64,000 nucleotides of DNA, taken from the NCBI GenBank assembly GCA_009777775.1, contig WRLE01000002.1:62001-126000 (forward strand). Direction: 5' to 3'. The notes below the pieces were generated by a model that did no database searches, was not told where the DNA came from, and saw only the letters and a program-made list of their open reading frames with translations. Made by a program: the position numbers and the translations under genes. Position 1 is the first letter of the stretch, and each line of letters opens with the position of its first letter. The DNA comes from Oscillospiraceae bacterium. Its GTDB lineage: Bacteria; Bacillota; Clostridia; Oscillospirales; Oscillospiraceae. Shown here piece after piece: positions 31,799 to 49,753 of the stretch.

Positions 31799-33115
31799 TT
31801 AATCCATTTTGGAATATGTAATGCGGTTTCTTCCTTCTTGTTTTGATTTATACAGCATTTCATCTGCTCGCAAAATAAGTGCATCGCTACTGACGGGATG
31901 GGAAATACGTCCTGTTGCAGCACCAATGGAGACTGTGATGTGGTCTGCCACTTCGCTTTTTTTATGGGGGATTTTCAAGTCTTGCACATATAAAAGCAAC
32001 CTTTCGGCAACAACCTTAGCTCCTGGAGCATCGGTATAGGGTAAAACAGCCACAAATTCTTCTCCGCCATACCTTGCTACAAAGTCCTCTTGTCTAGATA
32101 TTCCCTTTGTAAGTGCTTCTGCAACAGCCTTTAGGCAATTGTCCCCTGCCTTGTGTCCATACGCATCGTTATAGTATTTAAAATAATCGATATCAATCAT
32201 TAAAAGGCTGAGTTCACCATCACCCCGCGACATGGTTCGCAACACCCGCTCAAAATTTTCATCGAAAAATCTTCGATTATATATGCCAGTCAAAGCATCA
32301 TAATAAATCTTCGCCACTTCCACTTCAAGCCTTCTCACTTGAGTCACATCGTGGGCGATGGCACCAATGTCGTTTGTATCGGTAACAAAACCTGTGAAAG
32401 ATAATATCCTCACATCCTGGTCCTTTTGCACCATATGCACCTCGCAGGCTGAAGTTCCATATTCCAATGTGTTCGGAATAAGTATATCTTTAATATCACT
32501 CACAGTTTGATTGTCGAAAATCAATTCCAAGCCTTTTTCTCTGATTTCTCCTTCGCTGTAACCTGTCATTTTTATGGCTGCGGGATTTAGGTAGCTTACA
32601 TTACCCTCTGTGGTTAGATAAAAAATAAAGAAAGGCGAGTGTTCAACAATTGATGATTGTTTTACCATATTTATTTGTTGTAATATTTTTATTTGATTTT
32701 GCACTCGTAATTTGACAATTGCAGGATTAAAGGGCTTCGCTATATAATCAACAGCACCCAATGCAAGCCCTTTTTCTTCGTCTTCCGCATCGATTAGCGC
32801 AGTTATGATAATAATGGGAATGTCCTTCGTTCTATCCATACTTTTAAGCGCAGTGATAACAGCATACCCATCCAGCTCTGGCATGATAATGTCTAGGAGT
32901 ATCACATCAGGTCTCGTTTCCTCTGCCATTTCTATTGCTTTGCGTCCATTTTCCGCTACGCTGATATTGTATTGGTCGCTTAAAATGTTTGTTAGGACAT
33001 GAATATTTAAAAGAGAGTCGTCCACAATCAATACGCTATATTCAAAAGCATCGATTTTCTCACCATCGTTGCTTTTTTCATTGTCCGGTAAATTCTTTAT
33101 AGTATTTTCCGACAT
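31799..33115 (-). CDS. Diguanylate cyclase response regulator, REC-PAS-GGDEF
   Basis: This 438-residue cytoplasmic regulator makes cyclic di-GMP. The receiver domain (about 25-145) has its Asp in VILLDIIMPELDG and the Lys in YIAKPF. A PAS domain follows (about 155-265, SIVEHSPFFIFYLTTEGNVS), then a GGDEF domain with an active GGEEF signature (ARYGGEEFVAVLP) and an RQED inhibitory site just before it. It is one of two adjacent REC-GGDEF genes downstream of a hybrid kinase, and all three probably form one signalling path. Confidence 0.92.
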   Translation of the reverse strand: MSENTIKNLPDNEKSNDGEKIDAFEYSVLIVDDSLLNIHVLTNILSDQYNISVAENGRKAIEMAEETRPDVILLDIIMPELDGYAVITALKSMDRTKDIPIIIITALIDAEDEEKGLALGAVDYIAKPFNPAIVKLRVQNQIKILQQINMVKQSSIVEHSPFFIFYLTTEGNVSYLNPAAIKMTGYSEGEIREKGLELIFDNQTVSDIKDILIPNTLEYGTSACEVHMVQKDQDVRILSFTGFVTDTNDIGAIAHDVTQVRRLEVEVAKIYYDALTGIYNRRFFDENFERVLRTMSRGDGELSLLMIDIDYFKYYNDAYGHKAGDNCLKAVAEALTKGISRQEDFVARYGGEEFVAVLPYTDAPGAKVVAERLLLYVQDLKIPHKKSEVADHITVSIGAATGRISHPVSSDALILRADEMLYKSKQEGRNRITYSKMD

Positions 33116-33261
33116 AAGTCCTGCCCCATAGGAAATCTAAATAGTTTTAGCTTCGCATTAATATATTCGGAGTATTAGTCTACTCTACATCAATAACAAA
33201 GATTCATCGTATATATCATCGTTATAATTCACATTCCAATTGATAGTTAAACTACATTCTT

Positions 33262-34197
33262 TTATTGTTTTCCATCCTCATTTGCACTGCAAACCTTGTT
33301 ACGCCCTGTTTGTTTTGCCAAATATAGAGCCTTGTCAGCACCATTTACAAAGATGTCGCTAGGTTCGTTCCTTTGCGGCACAACAGTATTTGTACCTACG
33401 CTGACTGTTATTTGCGTTGGTGTTCCGTCGGCGCAAAGGATGGTTTCACCTTCCACATTTTTTCTAATGATTTCCGCAATATGCAACGCTCCAGCATGGT
33501 TCGTGCTGGGTAGAAGCACAGCAAATTCTTCTCCACCCCAACGTGCGGCAAAGTCACCTGGTCGGTTCAATGACTGGGAAATGGTTTTGGCTATGATTTG
33601 CAAAACAACATCCCCTTGTTGATGTCCATATGTATCATTATATAGTTTAAACATATCCACATCAATCATTAAAATACTGATAAATGTCCCCTCCCTGATG
33701 GCGCGTATCCATTCCAAACTGAATCGATTATCAAATCCACGCCTATTGGGAATGGAAGTCAATTGATCCACTAGGGACAACAATTCGATTGTACGCAATT
33801 GGTTAATAATTTTGATTTGATTTGCAATACGAAGCTTCACGATTCCAGGGATAAAAGGTTTGCTAATATAGTCAGCAGCACCCAGTGCCAACCCTTTTTC
33901 CTCGTCTTCGAAATTACTGAGTCCTGAAATAAAAATAACAGGTATATCTTGAGTAATGCTGGAACTCTTCAAGCTGGCTATCAATGCATATCCATCCATT
34001 TCCGGCATAATGATATCGAGCAATATAACATCGGGTTTGTGTTTTTCTGCGGCTTCCAACGCTTTTTCCCCTGTCTTTGCTGCATAAATCATATACTCTG
34101 AGCCAAGTATGTGCGTCAGTGCCATAATGTTGGAATTCTCATCATCCACAATTAATATGCTGTTCTTTTTTAGATCTTCCAATTGCTCACATCCCAT
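33262..34197 (-). CDS. Diguanylate cyclase response regulator, REC-GGDEF
   Basis: This 311-residue protein has a receiver (about 12-130, Asp in VILLDIIMPEMDG) joined directly to a GGDEF domain with active signature ARWGGEEFAVLLP and an RPGD inhibitory site. Its first codon overlaps the end of the upstream hybrid kinase gene by 11 bp, so it is probably phosphorylated by that kinase. The receiver closely resembles that of the product of 31799-33115, which suggests a local duplication with gain or loss of the PAS domain. Confidence 0.92.
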   Translation of the reverse strand: MGCEQLEDLKKNSILIVDDENSNIMALTHILGSEYMIYAAKTGEKALEAAEKHKPDVILLDIIMPEMDGYALIASLKSSSITQDIPVIFISGLSNFEDEEKGLALGAADYISKPFIPGIVKLRIANQIKIINQLRTIELLSLVDQLTSIPNRRGFDNRFSLEWIRAIREGTFISILMIDVDMFKLYNDTYGHQQGDVVLQIIAKTISQSLNRPGDFAARWGGEEFAVLLPSTNHAGALHIAEIIRKNVEGETILCADGTPTQITVSVGTNTVVPQRNEPSDIFVNGADKALYLAKQTGRNKVCSANEDGKQ

Positions 34198-36907
34198 TTC
34201 TTTTTAGTTTCATCAAGACCTTTAATGCCCCATCAAAATCATAGTCTTCCATCAACGAACAAAGCTCCTCTGTTCCTTCAATGCTTTTGATTTCATCGAG
34301 CATATCTACGCATTGGGGGTTGATGTTTTCTAGCATAATGCGTAGGCGCTCAAAAATTATTTCCTTTTCTTGGGCATTCATATCAAAATGCCCAAGAAGA
34401 GCAACAGCTTCTTCGTACTGTGGTTTTAGTTCAGAAAGAATATGATTAAGTTCAGCTTCCAACATACTCCATTGTGGCATTGTGGGCGCGACTTCATTAA
34501 TAAGTGCAGCCTCAATGGTGGCAGCCGTATTGCGCAATTTTGTTTTTCCAATCATTCCTGCATTCGTTTTGAGTGTATGGGCAAGCCTATGAGCTAAAGT
34601 GTAATCCTTTGCATTAATTGCGGAGATTATTTCGTTGAATTTAAATTGATTGTCTCTAAAGAAAGTTATTTTCAGCTTGTTCATCAAATCATCTTGATCA
34701 TCGGTACTATCCACTGATAGATTCACTGGATTCATATGTTTTAGTAGTATTTGCCATAATTCCTGTGAGGTAAATGGCTTGCTTAAATAGTCGGACATGC
34801 CATGGGCTAGATAATTGTCTATTTCCCCTGACATAATATTTGCAGTGACCACAACGATAGGAGTTCCTGTGTCAAGTTCGGATATTTTTAAAGCAGCTTC
34901 CATCCCATCCATAACCGGCATAAAAACATCCATAAAAATCATGTCAAATGGTACAAATCCGTTTTCCATGCGTTCTTTCACAATATCTAAGCCGATTTTC
35001 CCATTTTCAGCAATGGTTGTATTGAGCCCAACACGCACCAAGTGCTCGCGCATAACCTGCTGATTCATAATATTGTCTTCGCATATCAAAACATTGCCAT
35101 CGAAATGAGGTCTTTCGATGGTCTCGGAGATAATCTGTTCTGAGTAGTCTTCGGCTGCATCTATCGTTTCAAATGTTAGCTCAAAACTAAATGTGCTGCC
35201 AACGCCTTGGACGCTGTCAACGGTTAATACACCACCCATTAATTCCACAAGGTTTTTAGTGATTGTCAAGCCAAGGCCTGTTCCACCATAGGTCCTGGTT
35301 GTGCTTGAATCAGCTTGGGTAAAGGGTTCGATGGCTTTTTCGATTTGTTCCTCGGACATCCCGATGCCACTGTCTTTCACCTCAAAATATACAGTTGCAC
35401 GATCATTTTCCACTTTTTTTATTGAAGATTGCATCCGCACGGAGCCCCTGTTGGTAAACTTGACAGCATTGGAGAGCAGATTCATTAGAGCTTGATATAA
35501 TTTTACTGAATCTCCAAGGAGCTTCTTACCAGTGGAAGGCTCAGAATATACATACAATTCCAACCCCTTTTCCTGTGCATCAGGCAATATAACAGATCGG
35601 CAACGCATAAAAACGCTATTTAGGTCAAATGGTACTTTTTCCAAGTCCATCCTACCAGATTCAATTTTCGAGATGTCAAGTATGTCGTTGACAATTTCCA
35701 AAAGCCATTTTGTGCTATCTATTATTCTGGTCAAGTAGTCCCTGAGCTGGGGAGACAATTCATTGTCCAAGGATAGTTCAGCAAAACCCATTATGCTATT
35801 CATGGGGGTGCGTATTTCATGGCTCATATTCGCCAAAAATACTGATTTTGCTAGATTTGCTGCTCTAGCTTCTTCCATAGCTACCCAGAGAAGCTCATCT
35901 CGCCTCACCAATTCCCTTTCCCTTTCCCGGGCATTGGTCAAGTCCATCAAATAACCAACTATGGCAAAACTGTCTCCATATGGAATACGCCGCAATTCTG
36001 TATCCACAATCCTAATGCGTCCGTTCATATTAAGCTCTGTTTCATACTTTACATATCCATCCCTTACTGCCATATCTAACCATTGTGATATGGGTACAGT
36101 TGGATTCCCATCGGATTGATATTTGAGAACGCTCATTTCCATGGAGCTGTAATAATTTTCCAGTAAATCTTGCTTTGTTTCAAAGCCCATAAAGATATGT
36201 GCTGCGGGATTACAATCAATTACTTTGAAATTACTGTCAAACATTATGTTCATATGGGGATTACTCATAAATATCGCCGTTACAGTTTGCTGTGCAGATT
36301 CTATTGCCACAATTGAGGCTTCGGCTTTTTTGTTTTCACTAACATATATTTTCGTTTGAAAAACAACAATAGACCCCATAAAAATTCCAACAATAAAAAT
36401 AGACTGTATTTGGTCTATAAACATCTCATATGTACTGAGTCCTCCTGGCGGAAATGTCTCCCAATGGAAAAAAAGGGTAGTAGAATAGCATAAAATAATT
36501 ACAAAGGATGTTAAAACAAGGGCAATAATGCGTGTTCTTCCTTTTAGTAAGACAAAGTTGAGTATGACTGCCAGAGCAAAATATGCAACCATGCCAGAAC
36601 CGAACCCACCAATTGTGAAATAAAATGTGGGCCAAAACACAAGGCTGAGGGCAAAAACTAGAATTGTGGTCAATGTGGTTGCATGCCTGGCTCCTTTTAC
36701 AGAGGAAATAAACAAACTTGTTATTCCAACGATTAGCAAAAGAATCGGTGCTATGGAAACGAAAGGCATTCCAGCCACCAAGCGAGCAAGCAACGCAGCA
36801 AGAGCAGCAAGAATCCCACAAATACAAACAAAATTAAGGGTTCGCAATTCAAAGGTCATTTCATCGTTATCGAATAGTTTATATGCTATAGCTTTTATCC
36901 AGTTCAT
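34187..36907 (-). CDS. Membrane hybrid histidine kinase with PAS, REC and HPt
   Basis: AAGGAG just before the ATG at 36907 sets the start ([13 protein letters not shown]), giving 906 residues; the open frame extends 33 bp further. About six membrane helices occupy residues 25-190. A PAS domain follows, then HisKA ([15 protein letters not shown]), HATPase ([16 protein letters not shown]), a receiver ([13 protein letters not shown]) and a C-terminal HPt domain ([13 protein letters not shown]). The output likely passes to the two REC-GGDEF proteins encoded just downstream, linking a membrane signal to cyclic di-GMP. The ligand is unknown. Confidence 0.9.
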
Positions 36908-37162
36908 TTCACTCCTTGCTTTGTGGTTTTGCCGAAACAATTAACTCTATACTTCAGGCTTTTCCATCACCACAGTTTAAATATTTTCTTTTTGATTATT
37001 TTAATCACTTTAACATCAATTGTCAAGATGCTCCTTGCTGACCAGAGACTTCATATCAACTTTTTTTACCCATTGCCGTTATCGGATTTTCGTGTTACAC
37101 TAGTTATATACCATAAGACGAAGAAGATTGTAAAAAGCTACAAATTTCAAGGAGGCTATGTC

Positions 37163-37915
37163 ATGAAAAAAATTGCGATTTACGGCAAGGGTGGCATTGG
37201 CAAATCCACTGTTGTGGCAAACATATCCGTCGCTCTTGCACAAATGGGTCTGACGGTCATGCAAATTGGCTGCGACCCGAAATCAGATTCAACACGAAAC
37301 CTGACAGGAGGAACAAGAATCCTCACAGTACTAGATTGTATGAGAGAACAAGGAGACGTTGAGCTGGAAGACATCGTCATTAAAGGCGATTCCGGAGTTC
37401 TATGTGTGGAATCAGGTGGTCCAATTCCAGGAGTGGGCTGCGCCGGCAGAGGCATTATAACTGCCTTTGAAAAATTAGAAGAACTGGACGCATACGAAGC
37501 ATATAAGCCCGATTTCATTTTTTATGATGTATTGGGAGACGTGGTATGCGGAGGCTTCGCCATGCCCATTCGGGGAGGATATGCAGACGAGGTTTGCATC
37601 GTTACATCTGGAGAAATGATGTCCCTTTATGCAGCATCTAATATCTCCCATGCTGTTAAAAGCTTTGGGAAGCGTGGCTACGCATCGCTGAAAGGGCTTA
37701 TATTCAATGCAAAAAATATCGATGGCGAAGAGGAATTAGTGGACAAAGCAGCCGTAGAAATCGGCACCGATGTTATATACAGACTCCCCAGGGACGGGCA
37801 AATCCAAGTTGCAGAAGCAATGGGTAAAACAGTTGTGGAAGCCTTTCCAGATTGCGAAATGTCCAAGCATTTTCGTGAATTAGCAAAGGTGGTTATGGAG
37901 GATAATGCAATATGA
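37163..37915 (+). CDS. Nitrogenase-like iron protein (NifH homologue)
   Basis: The start is the ATG at 37163 with AAGGAGG upstream; 80 further open codons before it are not expected to be translated. The 250-residue protein is a NifH/BchL/CfbC-type ATPase that passes electrons from a [4Fe-4S] cluster bridging two subunits. It has the P-loop [10 protein letters not shown], the DPKSDST switch block, Cys93 (GVGCAGRG) and Cys129 ([10 protein letters not shown]) as cluster ligands, and Arg96 at the site ADP-ribosylated in some nitrogenases. It is shorter than NifH of diazotrophs (about 290). It overlaps the next gene by four bases and should be the specific reductase of the D/K-like pair. Confidence 0.92.
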
Positions 37916-39219
37916 CAGTTGAGCTTCGCCATCTAAAGAAGCTTTCGACGATTCGTTCTGGTAAAAATATCAAGTTCCTCACCCCTGCTGTATATTCTGG
38001 TGGATACTGCCCCATGCGTATTGCTTGCAATATCGTTGAGAACACAGAAGGTTTGTCATACCTTTTGGTGGGAATGCCCGAATGTGCAACCCATTCCAGA
38101 GGAATGAACTCATCTCCTGATGGTCTCCAAGGAGAGCTGCGCTGGCTATATACCTTGGACGAAAACGAAGTGATTTTCGGTTGTCGCGAAGGGGTCATCG
38201 ACGCTTTGCGACAAATGAACGATGAAGGCGCAAAGGCAATCATGATCATCGCCACCTGCGTCACAGATCTCATAGGAGAGGATCTTGATGGAATAATTGA
38301 AGAGCTTCAGCCTCAAATAAACGCTAGATTATCCTTTGTCACCCTTGGGCAATTTAAAAACTTCGGCACCCCCATTGGAACCTGGAAAACAGCCGAAGCC
38401 CTCGGTACATTGATGATGCCGAAGGAGCGTATCGACAATAAAGCAAATGCATTGTTCATCGAACCCTGGCGTTATAATAACGACCCTGTGAACTTCCCCC
38501 TTGTCATTAGTGCCATGGAAGATCGAGGTGTGGATATCCGTCGCTTATCTCGTGGAGCTACCCTGGAAGACTACTTCGATGCTCCCGATGCCTCGATGAA
38601 TCTTGTGCTATCCTCATATACCCAACCCCTAGCGCAAAAAATGCAAGAGCGTTTCGATTTGCCCTATGCGCCGCTCCACAACGCATTCTCCGTTTCTCAA
38701 GTGGATGAGGTTTATGCCGATATAGCAAAGGCTTTCCAAATAGATTTTTCCAATTGCTTTGATAAATGGAGAGATAAGGCACTGGAGCTAGAAGAGCGAG
38801 CGCACAAAGATTTACCTGGTCTGAAATATGCTTTTCTAACAGGGGTTGATATGCCTGTTGCATTGGCTAGGTATTTATCGGCTTTTCAAATGGAACCTTT
38901 GCTAATGCATATCCAAGATTTCCATAACGAAGACATCGGATATGCAAAGGAAATGAAAACATTGGGTTATGACCCTCCAGCGTGCCGCATAATGCATAGG
39001 GATAAAGATTTGGAAATTATCAAGGCAATGAAGCCCGATATAAGTTTTGGCTCAATTCCCAGAGATTTCGAAGGTTTACGGGTGGCTGAGGAAATGGGAG
39101 ACTACTTCGGCATGACTGGCTACGAGCGGACTGTTAGCCTACTGACACGTATATTCAATGTACTGGAAACCGGAAAAACCGGAGAAAGGATGGATGTTTA
39201 TGGGTCTGTACCGTTTTAA
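37912..39219 (+). CDS. Nitrogenase component 1-like protein, D-type
   Basis: This 435-residue protein belongs to the nitrogenase component 1 family (NifD/NifK/BchN/BchB). Conserved landmarks are YCPMRIACN (Cys33, Cys39), [12 protein letters not shown] (Cys58) and [16 protein letters not shown] (Cys116), which match by position the three cysteines that hold the P-cluster side in NifD. At the place of the FeMo-cofactor cysteine the text is [12 protein letters not shown], with no Cys, and no His matches the NifD cofactor His. It therefore probably does not bind FeMo-co. The ATG overlaps the stop of the iron-protein gene. Substrate unknown; a reductase distinct from nitrogenase is inferred. Confidence 0.88.
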
Positions 39220-40438
39220 ACCCATGCCCTCTGGTCGCATGGGTATTTTTTGGACATTATCAGGCATAAAAGAATCAGCCATAATCGAGTTTGGCTGCAT
39301 GGGCCATAATCTATACAGCGGTGCTGATCTTCGTCGAGCTGGTATATATGAAGGTTTTGGAGCTCCTTTGTACACCACCTACATTGATGAAACAGACATC
39401 TCACTAGGCGATACTTCACGCCTAGATGCCACAATCAAGCAGGTTATTATAAATGATGCTCCAAAAGTCATTTTTCTCCAACCTTCAGCTGTGCCGGAAG
39501 TCATTGGCACCGATTTGTTTGCAGTTGCCAATGAACTACAGTTTGATTTTCCCGAAACGCGCCTCATTCCAATTGGACACGGCAGCTTTGCGATTACCCA
39601 GCATAAAGGTGTCGAGGAGGCTCTTCTTGCACTTTCCAAAACTCTACCCTTAGACATCGCCTTATCAGATGCTCCCACATACAACATCATCGGTTCTTGT
39701 CCCGATCTTTTCCGCTACAAAGCCGATGCCGTTGAAATAACTAGGCTCATGGAAGGTGCGTTCGGCATGGATCCTTGCTGTATATTATCATCGGATACCA
39801 GCATAAGCGCAATCGAAAAAATGGGTAGTGCCCATGTGAACCTTGTTATTCGCAGGGAAGGCATACCCGCCGCACAGCTTCTGGAAAAGCGTTTTGGAAC
39901 TCCCTATGTCGTAGGCCGACCATATGGCATTAAGGGTACAAACCAGTGGCTGGAGGATGTGGGAAACACCCTCAATCGTTCACAAAATAAAGCTTTTACC
40001 AATTTCGAGACTGAGCTTGTTCTGGAACAAATTGACCAAGCATATAATACCCTTGAAGGCAATGCCTGGTCATATCCTCAGGAAGCTGCCATTTCCATAG
40101 GTGGTCATGCTGACGTGGTGAAGGGTGTTTTAGATTTTGCCACTAAGGAAATGCCCTTAAAAGTCGGCTCTTGCTGGTGCGACTGCCCAGAAATGGGAAC
40201 TGATGAGATACCCTATTTTTCCGAAAAGCAGTGGATACCCATAGTGAAAAACCACGACAAGGGCTATCTAATGTTCAGCGGTGAAGCTTTGAAATGGGCT
40301 GGTAAGAATACTTCGCTCCAGATTTCCAACCCAGACATCGGCTGGCGTATTCACCCATACGAACCACCCTTTGTAGGCTATAGAGGAGCAGTCAACCTGG
40401 TTAATCTCTGGGTCAACGAATACGCACTAACACATTAA
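39200..40438 (+). CDS. Nitrogenase component 1-like protein, K-type
   Basis: This second component 1 protein of 412 residues begins at ATG 39200 (alternative ATG 39194) behind GGAGAAAGGA and overlaps the D-type gene by about 20 bp. The segment EFGCMGHN (Cys33) matches the middle P-cluster cysteine of NifK, while the first is missing and the third is replaced (QPSAVPEVIGTDL). Thus one ligand comes from this chain and three from the D-type chain. A Cys-Trp-Cys-Asp-Cys motif (Cys325, 327, 329) near the C-terminus is unusual and may bind a metal. The C-terminal GWRIHPYEPPFVGYRGA block resembles NifK. Probable D2K2-like reductase subunit. Confidence 0.85.
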   Translation: MGLYRFKPMPSGRMGIFWTLSGIKESAIIEFGCMGHNLYSGADLRRAGIYEGFGAPLYTTYIDETDISLGDTSRLDATIKQVIINDAPKVIFLQPSAVPEVIGTDLFAVANELQFDFPETRLIPIGHGSFAITQHKGVEEALLALSKTLPLDIALSDAPTYNIIGSCPDLFRYKADAVEITRLMEGAFGMDPCCILSSDTSISAIEKMGSAHVNLVIRREGIPAAQLLEKRFGTPYVVGRPYGIKGTNQWLEDVGNTLNRSQNKAFTNFETELVLEQIDQAYNTLEGNAWSYPQEAAISIGGHADVVKGVLDFATKEMPLKVGSCWCDCPEMGTDEIPYFSEKQWIPIVKNHDKGYLMFSGEALKWAGKNTSLQISNPDIGWRIHPYEPPFVGYRGAVNLVNLWVNEYALTH

Positions 40439-40544
40439 AGCTTAAATATGAGCAATGGGGGTTTCCGATTCTCCTCATTGCTCATTTTCATCTTACTTAA
40501 TCTTGCTTTAGTTGATTATTTTAATATGACGTGTTATTATGTAA

Positions 40545-42125
40545 TTGTTCAACAAATTCACAGACAAATACATCATAAACGAAAGTTTTATAATTATACT
40601 AATGACAAATCTGTTGGTTGTCGTAATCTATACAGTTCTAATTGTAATAGTTGCGCTTACTATATTTTTCGCATATATCAGAGACAGAAGTAAGTTAATA
40701 ACAATATATCTGATTCGCTTGTGCCTCATAACAATAGGTTGGCAAGTCTTTGCTGCTTTACATTTTCTTGTAAAAAGTGAAAAATTTGCTTTATGGATTT
40801 TTGATGCGAAACTCGTTTTCGTTGCTTTTGCACCCGTGCAACTGCTCTTGCTCAGCTACCAATTCTACAGCGTTAAATTTTCACGAAAAATAACGCTGCT
40901 TTTTTGTTTTTTATCAATTATTCCAACCATCACAGCAATCTTGGCGATATTTTCACCAATGCACAACTTAATACGTGCTGAGATATACTTCTTGCAATTC
41001 GAACCATTGCGAATCCTTCACAATGTTAGAGGAACTTGGTTTTGGATTCATTCTGGATATTCATATGTAATGATGATTTCTGCCATTATAACTGTCATTT
41101 ATTATCACACAAAACTACCCAGAGGATTTCGTGCACCCTCTTGGCTTCTTGCAGTTGGAAGTGCGATTGCGCTCTTGAGCAATGCAATCGTTTTATTTTC
41201 ACCATTTTCACAAAATGTGGACTTAACCTTGGTAGGTCTTAGCATTGCCTTGGTATTCACCTATGCAGGTATTACAAAATCAGATGAAAGCAATTTGTTG
41301 ATACAAGCCCTCGACAATATTTTCACCTATCTTGAAGACTACATTTTCATACTTAACAACAGCCGAATGATTGTTGAAATGAACCCATCCGCTCGCAAAT
41401 GGATATCTGTGCTGGAGCTTCGAGACCCATACATTTCATTTGATGAATTTCTACTAAACTTGGAAAAAAATACAACAGATGTTTCAAGGGTAGTGGGAAC
41501 AGGCGACCAGGATTTTCACTTAATGATTGACCAGCAAGTATCCCATTACAACTTAAATGAACGACCCATAACCGACGAAATTGGTAGAAACATAGGCACT
41601 TTTGCAATTTTTTCAGACATTACCAGATACCGCCTACTCATTGACCGAATCGAGGAATCAGCAGGAATCGACCCCCTCACCAACCTGGGTAATAGGCGCA
41701 GCTATGAACAGGCGTTAAGAAACTTAGATGAACCGTCATCTCTACCCTTTTCTGTTATTTTAGGCGATGTAAATGGTCTAAAAGTTGTAAACGATAGCAT
41801 AGGACATTCTGCTGGAGATAGCTTGCTTATTATTATCGCACAAATACTCAGAGATGCCTGTCCAGTAGGTATGCACGCTTATCGAATCGGCGGTGACGAG
41901 TTTGTCATACTCATGCCAAACACTTCATCAGCTGATGCGGCTGTCCATGTGGCAGCTATCAGAGAAGTCGTAGCAAAGAAAAATACCGATGGCACACCAT
42001 TTAATGTGTCCATCGCCCTTGGAATAGCAACAAAAGAAGAAGAAGAACAAAATTTGATAGAATGTATAACAATAGCAGACCAGAATATGTATCTGGATAA
42101 GGCAAACGACCGACGTAGCAGATGA
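40545..42125 (+). CDS. Membrane diguanylate cyclase, 7TM-PAS-GGDEF
   Basis: This 526-residue protein starts at TTG 40545 (an ATG at about 40602 is an alternative). Seven to eight membrane helices (about residues 18-240) resemble the 7TM N-terminal sensor region of many clostridial kinases. A PAS-like segment (about 255-365) and a GGDEF domain follow, with the signature YRIGGDEFVILMP and the LILGDVNGLKVVNDSIGH metal-binding block. The RxxD inhibitory site is absent. It lies between the nitrogenase-like genes and the corrinoid genes on the same strand, and ends 15 bp before the corrinoid-protein gene, so it may sense a signal for this pathway. Confidence 0.87.
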   Translation: MFNKFTDKYIINESFIIILMTNLLVVVIYTVLIVIVALTIFFAYIRDRSKLITIYLIRLCLITIGWQVFAALHFLVKSEKFALWIFDAKLVFVAFAPVQLLLLSYQFYSVKFSRKITLLFCFLSIIPTITAILAIFSPMHNLIRAEIYFLQFEPLRILHNVRGTWFWIHSGYSYVMMISAIITVIYYHTKLPRGFRAPSWLLAVGSAIALLSNAIVLFSPFSQNVDLTLVGLSIALVFTYAGITKSDESNLLIQALDNIFTYLEDYIFILNNSRMIVEMNPSARKWISVLELRDPYISFDEFLLNLEKNTTDVSRVVGTGDQDFHLMIDQQVSHYNLNERPITDEIGRNIGTFAIFSDITRYRLLIDRIEESAGIDPLTNLGNRRSYEQALRNLDEPSSLPFSVILGDVNGLKVVNDSIGHSAGDSLLIIIAQILRDACPVGMHAYRIGGDEFVILMPNTSSADAAVHVAAIREVVAKKNTDGTPFNVSIALGIATKEEEEQNLIECITIADQNMYLDKANDRRSR

Positions 42126-42140
42126 AAGGATTGATATATT

Positions 42141-42800
42141 ATGACACGAGAGCAAGAATTACACCAAGCATTATCTGACGCAGTGCTCGATATGGATGAG
42201 GACTTGACAGAAGAACTAGCTAAAAAAGTCATCGAAGAAGGCTTCGATGCATATGCTGCCATAGACGCAGGACTCGCCGATGGAATGGAGCGAGCAGGCG
42301 TATTATTTGAAGATGGCGAATACTTTGTCCCCGAACTAATACTATGTGCCGATGCCATGTACAGGGCGCTCGATGTCTTGAAACCCCACATAAAAGTCGA
42401 AGAACAAGCTGTGAAACCACGGGCGATAATCGGCGTTGTGGAGGGCGATACCCACGACATCGGAAAGAACCTAGTTAGAATAATGACCGAAGCAGGTGGC
42501 TTTGAAATAATCGACATTGGGCGCGATGTTCCTCCCAATGTCTTTATAGACCGTGCCATTGAGGAAAACGCAGAAATAATCATGATTTCCACATTAATGA
42601 CAACAACGATGACAAATATGGCGAAGGTTATCGAATTGCTAAATGAGCGGGGATTACGTGATAAATTCAAGGTCATGGTTGGCGGAGGACCTATTTCCCA
42701 AGCATATGCAGACAGAATCGGTGCAGATGGGTATTCTAAAAATGCCGCTGAAGCCGTAAGGCTTGCAAAGTCATTGCTGGGAATGGAGGTTGCAAAATGA
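42141..42800 (+). CDS. Corrinoid protein of methyltransferase system (MtaC/MtbC-like)
   Basis: This 219-residue protein carries a B12 cofactor that shuttles a methyl group. The N-terminal helical cap (about 1-90, with MERAGVLFEDGEYFVPELILCADAM) is followed by a Rossmann-type cobalamin domain with the ligand motif EGDTHDIGKN (His105 as the lower cobalt ligand), and the later TLMTTTM and GGGPISQAYADRIGADGY blocks. It overlaps the following methyltransferase gene by four bases (ATGA), so the two are translationally coupled. It should accept a methyl group from an unknown donor. Confidence 0.94.
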   Translation: MTREQELHQALSDAVLDMDEDLTEELAKKVIEEGFDAYAAIDAGLADGMERAGVLFEDGEYFVPELILCADAMYRALDVLKPHIKVEEQAVKPRAIIGVVEGDTHDIGKNLVRIMTEAGGFEIIDIGRDVPPNVFIDRAIEENAEIIMISTLMTTTMTNMAKVIELLNERGLRDKFKVMVGGGPISQAYADRIGADGYSKNAAEAVRLAKSLLGMEVAK

Positions 42801-43834
42801 GTGCCACAGCACGTGAAGTAATGGACTCGGTGATTAATCGGATTCCACCTGAACGCTTTCCCACTACAGCCAGTGTCTTCTCTGTGAGTTCTCGAGCAGC
42901 AGGCTACACTTATGAACAATTTGCAAATCTCGACCCCCTGGAGCAGGCTCAATTTGAATACAATGTGGTGAGCAAAAACGGCACCGACCATCTCAGTGGC
43001 TCTATGAGCGGAACCCTCCTACCGGAAGCCCTGGGCGGTAAAATAAAGTTTCGAGAGCACGGTTCTCCAGATGTGGATGAACCCATGATAGAAAACATAT
43101 CGGATATTGATAAAATCGATCTAAGCCGTATACGCAACTATCACCATTATCAAAAATCTTTGGAATCGGCTCGATATTTATTCGACATGGGTAATGGTGT
43201 ATATAACAACTATGTTCACACTTGGGGTGTGTTTACCCAAGCTGGCTTGTTTTATGGTGAAGAAAAGCTCATGCGAGCCTGTCTTCGAGATAAACCAGCT
43301 GTGAACGCTCTGTTGGAATTCACATTTGAAGTATTCAAATATACACAAGATGAATTCATCGACATAGGTGCCACCATCGGCAGCTGTGCAGACCCAACAG
43401 CGTCAGGTGACATGATTTCTAAACGTGTCTTCGAAGAGTTCGCTGCGCCCTATTTGAAAAAAGTATATGATTGGTACAAATCAAGAGGGCTTCACACTTC
43501 ACTACACATATGTGGAAACATCGATGACCGTATTGACTTGATTGCAAATACCAATGTGGATATTCTTTCCGTTGACCACAAAGTTGACATAGTAAAAGCT
43601 GCCCAAGTGTTAAATGGTAGAGCAGTTATAGGCGGAAATGCCGACCCAGTAAGCGTGATACTCGACCAGACACCCGCTGATGTTCGGGCATTTTACGAGG
43701 ATCTCGTTGTAAAGCTGGATGGATACCCATATGCAATAATGCCAGGTTGCAGCGTTCCCACCAGCACTCCCATAGCAAATGTTTTGGCAATGGTGGAAGT
43801 GGCACACGCTCACAAACCTGGGAAGTACAATTAG
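42797..43834 (+). CDS. URO-D-fold corrinoid methyltransferase, paralogue 3
   Basis: This 345-residue MtaA/CmuA-like protein has the zinc-site motif LHICGNIDDR and the closing MPGCSVPTSTPIANV, where the second cysteine occupies the third zinc-ligand position seen in MtaA-type enzymes. It is coupled to the corrinoid-protein gene by a four-base overlap and should exchange a methyl group with that protein. It could act as the substrate-side or the acceptor-side transferase; a second transferase is encoded next. The N-terminal part is longer and more divergent than in MtaA, so a substrate-specific role is plausible. Confidence 0.87.
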   Translation: MSATAREVMDSVINRIPPERFPTTASVFSVSSRAAGYTYEQFANLDPLEQAQFEYNVVSKNGTDHLSGSMSGTLLPEALGGKIKFREHGSPDVDEPMIENISDIDKIDLSRIRNYHHYQKSLESARYLFDMGNGVYNNYVHTWGVFTQAGLFYGEEKLMRACLRDKPAVNALLEFTFEVFKYTQDEFIDIGATIGSCADPTASGDMISKRVFEEFAAPYLKKVYDWYKSRGLHTSLHICGNIDDRIDLIANTNVDILSVDHKVDIVKAAQVLNGRAVIGGNADPVSVILDQTPADVRAFYEDLVVKLDGYPYAIMPGCSVPTSTPIANVLAMVEVAHAHKPGKYN

Positions 43835-43892
43835 GAGTGAGGAATTAGGAGTTAGAAATTAAGACTCAGCAATAGGAATTAAGACTCAGCAA
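43834..43892 (+). repeat. 7-bp tandem repeat and 16-bp direct repeat
   Basis: The stretch starts just at the stop of the preceding gene and contains units ggagtga, ggaatta, ggagtta, gaaatta (43834-43861). Two copies of aattaagactcagcaa follow at 43857-43872 and 43877-43892. The next gene begins at 43912. The 7-bp unit recurs at 44936-44984. Confidence 0.75.
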
Positions 43893-43911
43893 ATCGAAAG
43901 GAAAAATATCA

Positions 43912-44943
43912 ATGACAAATGATTTATATACACCAAAAGAGCGCTTGCTCCGTAAGCTTCGGGGAGAAAGTGCCGATAGAGCTCCCGTCATATGTCCTGG
44001 GGGTATGCTCAATTCAGCCATCGTTGAAGTGATGGAACATACAGGTCATGTATTGCCCGATGGACATACCGATGCCGAGTTGATGGCTCTCCTCGCAAAA
44101 GACATAGCAGAGCTAACGGGATTTGAAAATTACGGTGTCCCCTTTTGCATGACAGTGGAAGCGGAAGCTCTAGGTAGCATCATCGATTTAGGCTCCCTTG
44201 TTTGCGAGCCAAAAATAAACAAGGAACGCTTCGCCTCTGTTTCTGAAGCACTCATTGAATTACCAGAAACAGCAGGAGACAACCCTCGAGTTGCAGTAAC
44301 TGCATCAGCGATACATATGCTCTCCGGCGGCGATATGCCAGTTATAGGCAGTATCACCGGTCCCATATCAACAGCTGCTTCCCTTGTAGACCCCATGACT
44401 TTTTTAAAGGAATTGCGAAAAGACAAGGATAACGCCCACAAAGTTCTCACAGCCATCACAGATTGGCTCATCAGTTATGCCCTCGTACTCAGGGAGAGCG
44501 GTGCTGACATAATATGCATCGCAGACCCCACGGCAACTGGAGAGATACTAGGTCCTCGCTTTTTCGAGGAATATGCCGTTACTTATATAAACAAGCTCGC
44601 AGATGGTATAAGAGCAACTGGCACACCAGTCATCGTCCATATCTGTGGACAGCTGTCCAGCGTATCCCAACACGTTTCCGAAATAAAAAGCGATGCCATC
44701 AGCACCGATGCAATGGTTAATCTTCGTAACTTAAAAAGCAAATACCCCGAACTTACCACCATGGGCAACCTGAGTACCATTAGATTGGAACAAGGCAACC
44801 CCGAAGGTGTAATACGCAACACAGACATCCTGCTTCGCTACGGTATCGACATCTTAGCCCCAGCTTGCGGCTTAGGTACTGCAACACCTCTAAAGAACAT
44901 AGCCGCTTTCACCCAACGTGCTAAACTAGGTATTGGGAGTTAG
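43912..44943 (+). CDS. URO-D-fold methyltransferase (MtaA-like), paralogue 4
   Basis: This 343-residue protein is the closest in the window to MtaA/CmuA-type methylcobamide:CoM methyltransferases: LYTPKERLLRKLRGESADRAPVICPGGMLN at the N-terminus, the zinc motif VIVHICGQLSS, and a C-terminal APACGLGTATPLKNI with the third zinc ligand Cys. AAAGGA lies upstream of the ATG. It probably passes the corrinoid-bound methyl group to a thiol acceptor. Such thiol acceptors include coenzyme M in methanogens; in a bacterium the acceptor is unknown and may be tetrahydrofolate through another protein. Confidence 0.88.
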   Translation: MTNDLYTPKERLLRKLRGESADRAPVICPGGMLNSAIVEVMEHTGHVLPDGHTDAELMALLAKDIAELTGFENYGVPFCMTVEAEALGSIIDLGSLVCEPKINKERFASVSEALIELPETAGDNPRVAVTASAIHMLSGGDMPVIGSITGPISTAASLVDPMTFLKELRKDKDNAHKVLTAITDWLISYALVLRESGADIICIADPTATGEILGPRFFEEYAVTYINKLADGIRATGTPVIVHICGQLSSVSQHVSEIKSDAISTDAMVNLRNLKSKYPELTTMGNLSTIRLEQGNPEGVIRNTDILLRYGIDILAPACGLGTATPLKNIAAFTQRAKLGIGS

Positions 44944-44984
44944 GGCTTGGGAATTAGGAATTAGGAGTTAGGAGTTAGGAATTG
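44936..44984 (+). repeat. Tandem array of seven 7-bp units spanning a stop and a start codon
   Basis: Seven consecutive 7-bp units read ggagtta, gggcttg, ggaatta, ggaatta, ggagtta, ggagtta, ggaattg. The stop codon (44941-44943) of the upstream methyltransferase lies in unit one and the TTG start (44982) of the next gene lies in unit seven. The AGGAG-like units supply the ribosome binding site of that gene. Confidence 0.85.
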
Positions 44985-46445
44985 GTAAAGGCTATTTTTG
45001 TTAACGAAGGCATCGAAATAGAAGTACCTCTGGGAACAACGATAATGGAGGCTGCGAGGCTTTGTGAAGTATATCTTGAATCTCCCTGCAATGGTACTGG
45101 CACTTGTGGGAAGTGCGAAGTTAGTGTGAATGATGAAATAGTATTAGCTTGCGAAACGGAGCTTTTGATTGATACAGAGATTCACACCTTGATGAACCAA
45201 GCTCAGAATCGAAGCTTGCAAATTCTTTCATCGGGACGAAGCTTCCAATATGATTTGAAACCCATGTTTGACAGCGGTTACGGTCTCGTAGTGGACATCG
45301 GTACCACTACATTGGTTGTTTCTTTGGTAAACCTAACAACAGGTGAAGAAGAAGCAAGCGAAAGCCTACTGAACCCGCAAGCGCAATATGCCCAGGATGT
45401 ATTATCTCGCATTCAATTAGCAGGAGAAGGCGATTCCCTTGACACCCTTTATTTTGCATTGACAGATGCTCTAAACGATGTGCTTATGCGGTTGTCAGCG
45501 GAAATAGGTATTTCCAACGACGACATCAAAGATGCCGTCTACAGCGGAAACACCACCATGCTCCATTTAGCAGTCCGCAAAGACCCCACCTCGCTGGGTA
45601 AATACCCCTATACACCAGCTCTAACAGGTGGCAGATACCAAGAAGCGGACAGCCTACGCATCGGTGGCGACATTTATCTGCCCCCATTTATTTCTGCCTT
45701 TGTGGGAGCAGACATCACTTCGGGCATACTGGCATCAGGGCTTTCCCATACAGCAGAAACAACGCTTTTCATAGACATCGGAACAAATGGCGAAATGGTC
45801 CTTGCCATGAATGGAGAGCTGGTTGCCACAAGCACAGCAGCGGGTCCCGCTTTCGAGGGAATGAATATTTCCCAAGGAATGCGAGCATCAAAGGGTGCCA
45901 TCGACCGTTTTCAATTCAATGATGACGGCACATTTATATACTCCACCATAAACAACGCTCCCGCTGTGGGAATATGTGGCAGTGGGCTTTTAGATGCCAT
46001 AGGCGAGCTTGTGCGAGTGGGTATCATTGGTAAGACAGGTCGTTTCAGCGATAAATCTAAAGAGTTCCATATCACAGAAAATGTGGCAATCACACAAAAT
46101 GACATTCGCCAATTGCAACTGGCAAAGGGAGCCGTTCGCACCGGTATCGATGCCATGTTGATGGCACGGAATATAAGCCCAGATGATATAGAGCGGGTGG
46201 AAATAGCAGGTTCTTTTGGCTATCATCTAAAAGAGAGCAGCCTGCTGGATTTGAAAATGCTCCCAGAGTCTTTTCGTGGAAAAGTCAGTTTTGTGGGCAA
46301 CACCTCCCATTCCGGCGGTGCTGCATTGCTCCTTAACACAGACCTACGTGCCCAAATGGAAAAAGTAGTAAAATCCGTCCAAGCCATCGAACTAGCAGAC
46401 GACGACGACTTCCAAAAAATGTTTATAAATTCCCTGGGTTTTTAA
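44982..46445 (+). CDS. Corrinoid activation protein (ferredoxin plus ASKHA domain, RACE type)
   Basis: Proteins of this type use ATP to re-reduce inactive cob(II)amide to cob(I)amide on corrinoid proteins. The 487-residue sequence begins with a plant-type [2Fe-2S] domain having Cys36, Cys42, Cys45 and Cys57 (SPCNGTGTCGKC...LAC). The rest is the DUF4445/ASKHA region with phosphate-binding DIGTTTLVVSL, DIGTNGEMVLAM and a C-terminal EIAGSFGYHL. It starts at TTG inside the 7-bp repeat array. Its place at the end of the cluster supports a role in maintaining the corrinoid protein encoded at 42141-42800. Confidence 0.92.
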   Translation: MVKAIFVNEGIEIEVPLGTTIMEAARLCEVYLESPCNGTGTCGKCEVSVNDEIVLACETELLIDTEIHTLMNQAQNRSLQILSSGRSFQYDLKPMFDSGYGLVVDIGTTTLVVSLVNLTTGEEEASESLLNPQAQYAQDVLSRIQLAGEGDSLDTLYFALTDALNDVLMRLSAEIGISNDDIKDAVYSGNTTMLHLAVRKDPTSLGKYPYTPALTGGRYQEADSLRIGGDIYLPPFISAFVGADITSGILASGLSHTAETTLFIDIGTNGEMVLAMNGELVATSTAAGPAFEGMNISQGMRASKGAIDRFQFNDDGTFIYSTINNAPAVGICGSGLLDAIGELVRVGIIGKTGRFSDKSKEFHITENVAITQNDIRQLQLAKGAVRTGIDAMLMARNISPDDIERVEIAGSFGYHLKESSLLDLKMLPESFRGKVSFVGNTSHSGGAALLLNTDLRAQMEKVVKSVQAIELADDDDFQKMFINSLGF

Positions 46446-46570: not shown

Positions 46571-46592
46571 TTATATTTCCACAGAATATACA

Positions 46593-46638
46593 CGGGGACG
46601 GTACTTTTGTTCAAAAATGAACAAAAGCACCGTCCCCG
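46593..46638. repeat. GGGGACGGT hairpin element
   Basis: The arms cggggacggtacttttgt... (46593-46613) and its complement (46618-46638) pair over 20 of 21 positions with a four-base loop. The G+C-rich arms stand out from the AT-rich surroundings. Similar GGGGACGG-type repeats are known from other Firmicutes genomes; I see no open frame or transposase with it. Confidence 0.8.
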
Positions 46639-46644
46639 CGTTCA

Positions 46645-46674
46645 TGAAACTCTGTTTGAAATTAGTCTTGCTGT
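46645..46674 (-). pseudogene. 30-bp remnant of the solute-binding lipoprotein gene end
   Basis: The segment matches 50009-50038, the 3' end of the lipoprotein gene at 49985-52174, at 29 of 30 positions (core tgaaactctgtttgaaatta). It abuts the stop codon of the AAA ATPase gene (46676). No more of that gene is present here. Confidence 0.75.
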
Positions 46675-48272: not shown

Positions 48273-48634
48273 ATTAGTAATGCTAATAAAGCAAAAAAAA
48301 GCATCGCTGACTTTCTGGTCTGCATTGCTGTTTGCTGTTATTCGGTTGTTTGCTATGTTATTCGCTTGCTAACCTATTATGCTGCCATAGAAAGGTATTG
48401 CAATAATTGCATTTGCATTGGATGCTGCTCCCATTTCAATGGCTCTGTAGTAATCCATTGCTATTTCATAAACATATGCGCTGCGCTTTTCGTTGTTGCC
48501 TTTAGCCAGCCTTCATAGGTATGCGCCAATACCTATGCCCATTTCTTGTTTATATCTACTCCTCCCTTGCATTATATCAAAATATAACATATACTCTATT
48601 CAGATTTCGCATAAATTATTTGGAGGTACGATGT

Positions 48635-49753
48635 ATGGAATACAAACGTTATGATTATGGAGACCCTGACGCTCCGAAATATACTGTAACAAGCCCTTTC
48701 GGTGAAACAACTTATCCCAAGTTTGATTACCCCATATCTATCATCGAAAACTATAAACGCTCTGCACAGCTCAATAAACCAATGTGGGTTCCATTGCGCG
48801 CCATGGAGGTTCAATCCATCAGCCCCAACGATATGATACGACCAACAGACGCAGTAAAAGGACAAAGCGTAGCAATGGACTTCACCAGTCCAAAAACCGG
48901 TGACTACACATTCACAGATTGGTTCGAAACAGAGTGGACATATGTGCATTCCGCAGGAGGACCGATGCTCACTCCAGGTTTTGTCCAATGTGAGGATGTA
49001 ACCGATTGGGAAAAATGTGTAAAATTTCCAAATTTCGATGATTGGGATTGGACAACATTTCACGAAGATTACATGAAAAATAGATATGACCCCAACAAGG
49101 TGTTAGCTGTTGACATAGGCTTAGGATGCACAGAACGCTTCGTCTCTATAATGGGTGGCTATACAGAAGCTATGATAGCTTTCGCTACAGAGCCAGAAGC
49201 TTGTAAAGCCTTTTTCGAAGCATTCATTGACCACGAAATTGAACAATTCGACAGGCTAATGGCACTGTATCCCATAAATCATCTAACTTATCACGATGAT
49301 TGGAGTAATGAAAAAGATACATTTTTCTCTCCAGCTATGTTGGAAGATATGCTAATGGAGCCAACCAAAAGGTTCATCGACCATGTGAAGTCAAAGGATG
49401 TGGTTTTCGATTTTCATATTTGCGGAAACATGATGCGCTTTGCTCCATACTTTGCACAGCTGGGTGTAAATCTGATGCAACTTCAACGTAGAGCAATTGA
49501 TGCTGTGGCATTGAAAAAGGAATATGGCAATTACTTCGGTTTCGGTGGTGGTATCGAAGGTCTCACCATGGGTACCACACCCACGAAGGAGGAGCTTGTT
49601 AAGCTGGTGAGAGCCACCGTTGACCTGTTCGCTCCCAAAGGCGGTTTTTACGCATCTGTAAACGCTCGCGACCCCGAAGTCTTCTGGAATGGTATCACCG
49701 AATTCTACGCATACAGCCGCGAATTCTACGACAAAGAAAACGCAACCATATAA
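48635..49753 (+). CDS. URO-D-fold methyltransferase, paralogue 5
   Basis: The start is ATG 48635 behind GGAGG (48622-48626), giving 372 residues; upstream open codons are not used. The protein is a divergent uroporphyrinogen-decarboxylase-fold member with the zinc-type motif FDFHICGNMMRF and a C-terminal FAPKGGFYASVNARDPE block. It lacks haem-pathway neighbours. The same strand carries the corrinoid cluster about 2 kb upstream, and a 3' remnant of a related gene directly follows that cluster, so this gene may once have been its last member. Substrate unknown. Confidence 0.82.
   Translation: MEYKRYDYGDPDAPKYTVTSPFGETTYPKFDYPISIIENYKRSAQLNKPMWVPLRAMEVQSISPNDMIRPTDAVKGQSVAMDFTSPKTGDYTFTDWFETEWTYVHSAGGPMLTPGFVQCEDVTDWEKCVKFPNFDDWDWTTFHEDYMKNRYDPNKVLAVDIGLGCTERFVSIMGGYTEAMIAFATEPEACKAFFEAFIDHEIEQFDRLMALYPINHLTYHDDWSNEKDTFFSPAMLEDMLMEPTKRFIDHVKSKDVVFDFHICGNMMRFAPYFAQLGVNLMQLQRRAIDAVALKKEYGNYFGFGGGIEGLTMGTTPTKEELVKLVRATVDLFAPKGGFYASVNARDPEVFWNGITEFYAYSREFYDKENATI

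Follow-up and report, generated by a model that had tools for sequence, protein, structure and literature searches.

Gene content and layout of the locus

The window analysed here is a 64,000-nucleotide stretch of contig WRLE01000002.1 from an Oscillospiraceae bacterium, whose genome (G000; 2.8 Mb in 35 contigs) is 97% complete. Between positions 37163 and 46445 it carries eight intact genes, all on the + strand: the H, D and K genes of a nitrogenase-like system (hereafter HDK), a gene for a membrane GGDEF protein, and a corrinoid module comprising a corrinoid protein, two methyltransferases (MT1 and MT2) and a reductive activator, RACE (Table 1). Pfam profiles and motifs bear out the gene identities proposed in a first-pass annotation made from the sequence alone, including the DTHDIG motif of the corrinoid protein and the HxCG motifs of both methyltransferases, and the coordinates confirm its description of one strand with overlaps or short gaps. 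The same annotation placed the reductase and the methyl-transfer proteins in one pathway. Our analysis instead suggests two separate modules, of which HDK would use ATP to reduce an imported metal chelate.

The genes overlap by 4 bp (H/D), 20 bp (D/K, given a K start at 39200) and 4 bp (corrinoid protein/MT1), and are otherwise separated by 106 bp (K to GGDEF), 15 bp (GGDEF to corrinoid protein), 77 bp (MT1 to MT2) and 38 bp (MT2 to RACE). The start of K is most likely at 39200 rather than at the mechanically assigned 39158, because orthologues begin at the same MGLYRF. The GGDEF gene, whose product has both a 7TM region and the GGDEF motif, could alternatively start at an ATG at 40602. The gap between K and this gene holds a hairpin with a 14-bp stem (−19.5 kcal/mol; z −4.8; equalled in 0 of 200 shuffles), followed by UUUUCAUCUU, a short U-run; the hairpin is absent from the list of a simple terminator scan. 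Its strength suggests a terminator and two transcription units, and the short gaps alone therefore do not prove a single operon.

Table 1. Features of the locus, with positions in the window
Feature	Position	Strand	Evidence
H, NifH-like ATP-dependent Fe protein, 250 aa	37163..37915	+	Pfam Fer4_NifH 4.5e-94
D, NifD/NifE-like subunit, 435 aa	37912..39219	+	Pfam Oxidored_nitro 3.7e-52
K, NifK/NifN-like subunit, about 412 aa	39200..40438	+	Pfam Oxidored_nitro 1.6e-45
Hairpin with short U-run, likely terminator of the HDK unit	40448..40485	+	RNA fold
Membrane GGDEF protein, 526 aa from TTG	40545..42125	+	Pfam GGDEF 5.7e-30, HisKA_7TM 5.4e-23
Corrinoid protein with DTHDIG, 219 aa	42141..42800	+	Pfam B12-binding 1.2e-26, B12-binding_2
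MT1, URO-D-family methyltransferase, Mlp-like	42797..43834	+	Pfam URO-D 7.3e-43
MT2, URO-D-family methyltransferase, Mlp-like	43912..44943	+	Pfam URO-D 2.5e-69; NCBIfam PRK06252
RACE-type corrinoid-protein reductive activator, 487 aa from TTG	44982..46445	+	Pfam RACo_C_ter 4e-66, Raco_middle 2.5e-45, Fer2 6.6e-06

Ligand residues, predicted folds and phylogeny of HDK

By its motifs, H looks like a canonical Fe protein, with a P-loop (GKGGIGKST) at residue 8 and cysteines within GVGCAGRG (from 90) and DVVCGGF (from 126); it scores below every NCBIfam cutoff, the best being nifH (330.9 versus 394.35 bits). Pfam assigns D and K to the nitrogenase component 1 family, yet they fall outside all curated subfamilies, and with none of the three proteins does a nif, vnf, anf or bch model of NCBIfam exceed its cutoff. 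We scanned one genome per species across 84,980 species with two motifs from the K alignment. This yielded 50 distinct HDK loci, with L029–L032, which lie on the same contigs as L049, L052, L050 and L082, counted once; they include members of Clostridia, Negativicutes, Paenibacillus, Seleniivibrio and Coriobacteriia, and a Methanoplasma. The distinct D alignment comprises 50 rows including the window (one short fragment dropped), and the K alignment 49 rows including the window (two short ones dropped).

The cluster cysteines of D are retained throughout, at Cys33 (48/48), Cys58 (48/48) and Cys116 (50/50). The column of the FeMoco cysteine (Cys275) holds Ser in 43, Thr in 5 and Cys in 2 of the 50 rows, Ser being the residue in the window. 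K has one cluster cysteine, within GCMGH, conserved in 49/49, a count that is partly built in since one of the two search motifs contained this cysteine; it is also present in 5/5 independent finds (four loci found through D and a Sporomusa plasmid found by tblastn). The seven proteins of a sister family have Pro in its place. K lacks cysteine ahead of position 35 and carries a Ser at the third P-cluster position, such that, of the six P-cluster cysteines required by a nitrogenase, D supplies its three and K one. We take this 3+1 pattern to resemble that of NifEN. Specific to the clade are His256 (48/50) and Cys358 (49/50) of D, neither of which occurs at those columns in the seven sister proteins. 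The His442 column is empty in 50/50, which is weak evidence by itself, as the histidine of methylthio-alkane reductase (MAR) sits in another loop according to passages of PMC12552129.

No match to the NifB model TIGR01290 was found at E 0.001 in the window's genome, at its 97% completeness. Of the 50 orthologue genomes, 18 have a NifB match above the cutoff, none of these being among the 12 nearest to the window; four others have NifB-like matches below 1e-60 that remain under it. With Ser in place of the FeMoco cysteine and no NifB match in the host, the window's HDK is unlikely, judging from its residues and gene complement, to be a nitrogenase or a methylthio-alkane reductase.

Structural models were predicted from alignments of 39 and 37 sequences, with mean pLDDT of 88.4 for D and 86.6 for K. 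The closest PDB folds to the K model are BchB chains of DPOR (TM 0.73–0.83), with NifN nearly equal (0.73–0.79), and the D model is about equally similar to proteins across the superfamily (TM 0.53–0.65). The best PDB match of the D profile is a NifEN. In a tree of 64 chosen rows, which included a 267-aa MarD fragment and left out MarK and BchYZ, the inner D and K clades containing the window are each supported at 100/100, apart from Nif and MarD. These inner clades join the sister family at 98/90 for K and, together with a Treponema plasmid protein, at 100/98 for D; without the Treponema protein the D join is weak (86/45). The tree contains long branches (CfbD, BchN, BchB, Treponema and others), gave long-branch warnings and has unsettled bootstrap values, and we make no claim on its deep order. 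HDK forms a family of its own, separate from the Nif and Mar clades, and identity with either nitrogenase or MarHDK was rejected on the tree, the ligand residues and the NifB search taken together. A Treponema saccharophilum plasmid (L219, 5535–13191) encodes divergent nitrogenase-like H, D and K together with an iron permease, an ATPase and two binding proteins.

HDK shares with DPOR (BchLNB) an Fe protein, a two-part D/K component, a [4Fe-4S]-type number of ligands, the lack of a FeMoco ligand and BchB as the top fold of K. It differs in its tree position, in scores far below the curated cutoffs (BchL 196.4/345.15, BchN 28.6/419.95 and BchB 88.3/490.35 bits), and in the presence of Cys in K at the putative position of the BchB Asp described in passages of PMC11423573. 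Relative to CfbCD, the window has a separate K gene, and TIGR03282 scores 28.5 versus 268.4 bits. MarHDK likewise comprises nitrogenase-like H, D and K, and passages of PMC12552129 assign MAR six P-cluster cysteines, Cys270 and His429 as ligands and an [Fe8S9C] cluster, whereas the window's HDK has four cluster cysteines, no equivalent of Cys270 and no NifB match in its host. The missing ligands and NifB speak against an [Fe8S9C] cluster and C-S cleavage in HDK.

Genomic context of the two modules

The DNA inspected around HDK loci extends up to 10 kb per side, with at least 6 kb downstream of K in 36/50 and upstream in 40/50; corrinoid or importer genes lying farther away could escape the count in loci with short flanks. 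Within this DNA, profiles for the corrinoid protein and RACE matched in 0/50 loci, and that for URO-D hit a distant gene in three (L048, L051 and L057). A neighbourhood survey for conserved linkage to corrinoid genes had been set beforehand as the test of the one-pathway claim, and a conserved HDK-corrinoid cluster was rejected on this survey of 50 distinct loci. By that test the claim fails, no such linkage having been found in the HDK relatives surveyed. From the first-pass interpretation there remain the placement of D and K outside the Nif and Mar clades, supported by the tree, and the assignment of the corrinoid genes to methyl transfer, supported by their families; the shared pathway does not.

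Genes for importers, by comparison, are frequent neighbours. FecCD permease genes were found in 29/50 HDK loci, 7/7 sister-family loci and 2/2 plasmid loci, as against 0/20 type 1 mlp gene cluster (MGC) loci and 1/7 other nif-type loci. They are unevenly distributed, occurring in 27/38 of the farther HDK loci versus 2/12 of those nearest to the window. A Pelosinus locus encodes by Pfam an AraC regulator, a TonB receptor, a Peripla_BP_2 protein, FecCD and an ABC ATPase, and a Seleniivibrio locus a receptor and AraC. In Sporomusa termitida, one strand of a plasmid is annotated with a TonB siderophore receptor and AraC, and the other carries a binding protein, two iron permeases, an ATPase, H, D, K and a hydrolase-fold protein (Pfam Esterase). 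The Pelosinus receptor is closest to FemA and BauA, and its binding protein to the ferrienterobactin-binding protein and SirA. The one receptor and two binding proteins compared from the inner clade look siderophore-type by sequence similarity.

The sister family has importer genes beside or among H, D and K. One of its loci (L034, 11493–19851) encodes an IsdE-type binding protein (4.4e-45), sortase, NEAT and Shr-like domains, and another (L033, 4580–7771) NEAT and sortase. HDK relatives thereby resemble anaerobic iron-chelate uptake systems of the Isd/Hmu type in the FecCD importer beside them and, once, in the accompanying IsdE-type protein, NEAT and sortase. A flavodoxin gene lies near K in L033, L035 and L038, that of L038 resembling BilS (67.7 versus 155 bits). 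A riboswitch near HDK was also considered and rejected: none reached Rfam gathering scores in the 12 sources scanned, which returned one tRNA.

An ABC-transporter-linked clade of NifHEN-like Firmicutes proteins lacking FeMoco ligands was described by Dos Santos et al. 2012 (PMC3464626). As portrayed in passages of that paper, it agrees with HDK in having an ABC transporter close to its NifH, NifE-like and NifN-like genes, three conserved cysteines in the NifE-like subunit and no FeMoco ligands. We compare the two by description only; the window differs in having no FecCD importer, which 29/50 of its relatives have. The light-blue clade of the same work has a NifN-like subunit without a conserved cysteine, as does our sister family (7/7), whereas the window's clade has one.

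The host genome contains a second nitrogenase-like system on contig C4 (L047, 1022–12167), with a FecCD permease, an ABC ATPase, a Peripla_BP_2 protein, a 1244-aa CobN-family chelatase, a 766-aa H-D fusion and K. The chelatase matches PF02514 and exceeds the TIGR02257 cutoff (929.4 versus 822.05 bits); its best PDB match is CobN (6e-208), and HmuS heme dechelatase matches at 2.6e-105. This gene content suggests that L047 may serve import and processing of a metal tetrapyrrole. H-D fusions are already on record in passages of PMC3464626.

The corrinoid genes of the window resemble a type 1 MGC, bringing together a corrinoid protein, RACE and two Mlp-like proteins. The first-pass annotation had allowed that related clusters might already be in existing surveys, and this proved right: Kountz and Balskus 2023 (PMC10418091) describe both type 1 MGCs and their linkage to MarHDK-like genes. 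Those clusters share with the window the corrinoid protein, two His-Cys-Cys URO-D methyltransferases, RACE and nearby nitrogenase-like genes; they differ in that their nitrogenase-like genes are MarHDK-like, the window's being of another family, and in the GGDEF gene that heads the cluster here. The corrinoid protein has a 74% identical relative in L165. Both methyltransferases carry the His-Cys-Cys zinc-site residues of Mlps, with an HxCG at 237 and Cys318 in MT1 (H237-C239-C318) and an HxCG at 243 and Cys319 in MT2 (H243-C245-C319), and are predicted by motif to bind zinc. Among 391 genomes of the class, the best relative of MT1 is 59% identical and those of MT2 are 57–61%, in part 67%; MT2 scores 360.7 bits with PRK06252 against a cutoff of 244. 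Of the 20 other class genomes that have MT2 at E 1e-60, 18 combine it with a corrinoid protein, an MT1-like protein and RACE in one place. The non-selenium kind of type 1 MGC is marked by nearby sulfur genes and by a genome devoid of selenium-trait genes. Sulfur genes of cysK, metY and metA type lie beside such relatives, not beside the window's cluster: cysK-type genes in L166, L167, L169 and L170, and metA- and metY-type genes in L166, several scoring under curated cutoffs.

Nitrogenase-like genes (BLAST 1e-6) accompany 2 of the 20 other type 1 MGC loci, L169 and L170. L169 encodes, ahead of cysK and the MGC, a NifB-like protein (269.3 versus 343.65 bits), a NifX-type domain and H, D and K; L170 has Mar-like D/K, and no NifB-like gene was seen in the stretch examined. 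Because the D proteins of both group with the MarD fragment at 100/97, the window lying elsewhere, the linkage published for MGCs concerns a nitrogenase-like family other than that of the window's HDK.

Several further features of the host were recorded. RACE of the window has 487 aa, compared with 555, 557 and 563 aa in the MGC RACEs of L167, L170 and L166. The window contains three more URO-D-family genes (15733–16704, +; 24091–25095, −; 48521–49753, +), and its genome 34 first-look MT1 candidates, two scoring at 1e-10. Divergent to HDK, at 31799–36940 (−), lie a hybrid histidine kinase and two GGDEF response regulators, in addition to the GGDEF protein within the cluster. A 24-pair palindrome (CGGGGACGGTGCTTTTGTTC..., −44.3 kcal/mol) occupies 46590–46645, and similar letters seem, by eye, to recur near 48.1 kb and in L047.

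Both modules are scattered across the class. Among the 391 class genomes, 11 have the HDK family (E 1e-25) and 21 have MT2 (E 1e-60), and the two coincide only in the window's genome and in G227, where they lie on different contigs. Genus-wide inheritance was considered and rejected, as the 18 same-genus genomes gave a best D of 23–24% identity (two genomes, with G018 of the sister family) and a best MT1 of 29%. Given that no close relative of D or MT1 exists in these genomes, both modules are patchy and were probably gained; by their distribution, their meeting here may be one event.

Readings of the locus

We favour the reading in which HDK, in the manner of DPOR, uses ATP to drive the reduction of an imported metal chelate and stands beside an independent methyl-sulfur module, and assign it a probability of about 0.5. 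Its parts differ in strength. We are confident that HDK performs DPOR-like chemistry and has no FeMoco, and nearly as confident that the HDK and corrinoid genes are separate modules; an imported chelate as substrate, which we infer from the importer linkage of HDK relatives, falls just short of an even chance. H would hydrolyse ATP and pass electrons singly to a [4Fe-4S] cluster whose ligands are the three D cysteines and the single K cysteine, and the substrate would bind and be reduced in a D/K cavity holding neither FeMoco nor L-cluster. The substrate would most likely be an imported siderophore or tetrapyrrole metal chelate, with metal release or ligand reduction as the outcome. Ferric chelates of very high stability would require electrons of lower potential than ferredoxin supplies. 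The corrinoid module, probably transcribed separately from HDK and perhaps together with the GGDEF gene, would transfer methyl groups from a methyl-sulfur (or methyl-selenium) compound to the corrinoid, with RACE re-activating Co(II). Among the papers listed by literature searches, judged at title level, none proposes that a nitrogenase-like enzyme acts on siderophores or heme or places one in an Isd/Hmu-type uptake system.

Several observations weigh against this reading. The window itself has no FecCD importer, and with only 2/12 of its closest loci having one, its subclade may have changed role. NEAT adjoins HDK in only 2/7 sister loci (2/12 genomes examined) and was found in 0/5 inner-clade genomes searched (the window's and four others); the latter, with the siderophore-type receptor and binding proteins, weakens heme as a candidate inner-clade substrate. 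NifN folds match the K model almost as well as BchB, the U-run after K is short, and type 1 MGCs are reported to carry nitrogenase-like genes (PMC10418091). Moreover, 12 of the 50 orthologue genomes have an MT2 relative (37–61%, E <1e-60) outside the fetched locus, though none of the 12 genomes nearest to the window does. Set against 21/391 class genomes, this enrichment could mean a physiological link and speaks against full independence, with the caveat that the 50 genomes are a non-random sample that differs from the 391-genome set. Counted at the same threshold in both sets, it slightly lowered our confidence in separate modules and slightly raised our estimate for a single pathway.

That single pathway, in which reductase and methyltransferases would act on one and the same methylated S, O or N compound and HDK would stand in for MarHDK, is improbable. 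The MT2 enrichment favours it, as do the common strand with its gaps of 106 and 15 bp on either side of the GGDEF gene, and published type 1 MGCs with MarHDK-like genes in or near them (PMC10418091), an arrangement that L169 also shows. The D proteins of L169 and L170, however, group with MarD and not with the window, and none of the 50 HDK loci has a corrinoid-protein or RACE gene. The host's missing NifB match, the hairpin after K, and the co-occurrence in only two of the 391 class genomes, once on separate contigs, argue in the same direction. HDK might alternatively serve the corrinoid module, either as a second activator or in salvaging corrinoids, by reducing a corrinoid or a different tetrapyrrole. 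Tetrapyrrole synthesis is where DPOR, COR and CfbCD work (passages of PMC11423573), Dos Santos et al. 2012 suggested, in passages of PMC3464626, cobalamin reduction for NflD genes beside cobyrinate synthase, and the host's second system adjoins a CobN-family chelatase and FecCD importer. Since RACE already performs activation, no corrinoid-protein gene lies near any orthologue, no riboswitch was found in the 12 sources at Rfam gathering scores, and the inner-clade receptor and binding proteins compared look siderophore-type, we consider this quite improbable.

For a NifEN-like scaffold that builds a metal cluster from imported metal speak the 3+1 cysteine pattern, the NifEN that is the best PDB match of the D profile, and the closeness of NifN folds to K. 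Co-location with ABC transporters is in print, and a coupling of metal transport to cofactor assembly was proposed by Dos Santos et al. 2012 (both in passages of PMC3464626). The scaffold is nonetheless unlikely, as the locus has no partner D/K to take the cluster, the host has no NifB match and 32/50 orthologue genomes have none over the cutoff. A true nitrogenase or methylthio-alkane reductase, for which the strongly NifH-like H and the shared fold of D and K would speak, is improbable in the extreme: all curated nif, vnf, anf and bch models stay under their cutoffs, the tree places HDK elsewhere, the FeMoco cysteine is replaced in 48/50, K lacks a cysteine before position 35 and has Ser at the third P-cluster position, and no NifB was matched.

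The adjacency of HDK and corrinoid genes in the window, though striking, does not recur in the relatives examined, and serves as a warning. More tentatively than the reading of the locus itself, we propose that the HDK family may comprise a new functional class of ATP-driven reductases of imported metal chelates, acting on siderophores in the inner clade and heme in the sister clade by means of a [4Fe-4S] relay with 3+1 cysteines and of His256 and Cys358, the D residues specific to the clade; such enzymes would let strict anaerobes strip metal from complexes too hard for ferredoxin alone. If the chelate reading is true, an orphan branch of the nitrogenase superfamily, with members in Clostridia, Negativicutes, Paenibacillus, Seleniivibrio and a Methanoplasma as well as on plasmids, would gain a function, and the reading would be relevant to the ways in which some anaerobes free iron from siderophores or heme when O2 is absent.

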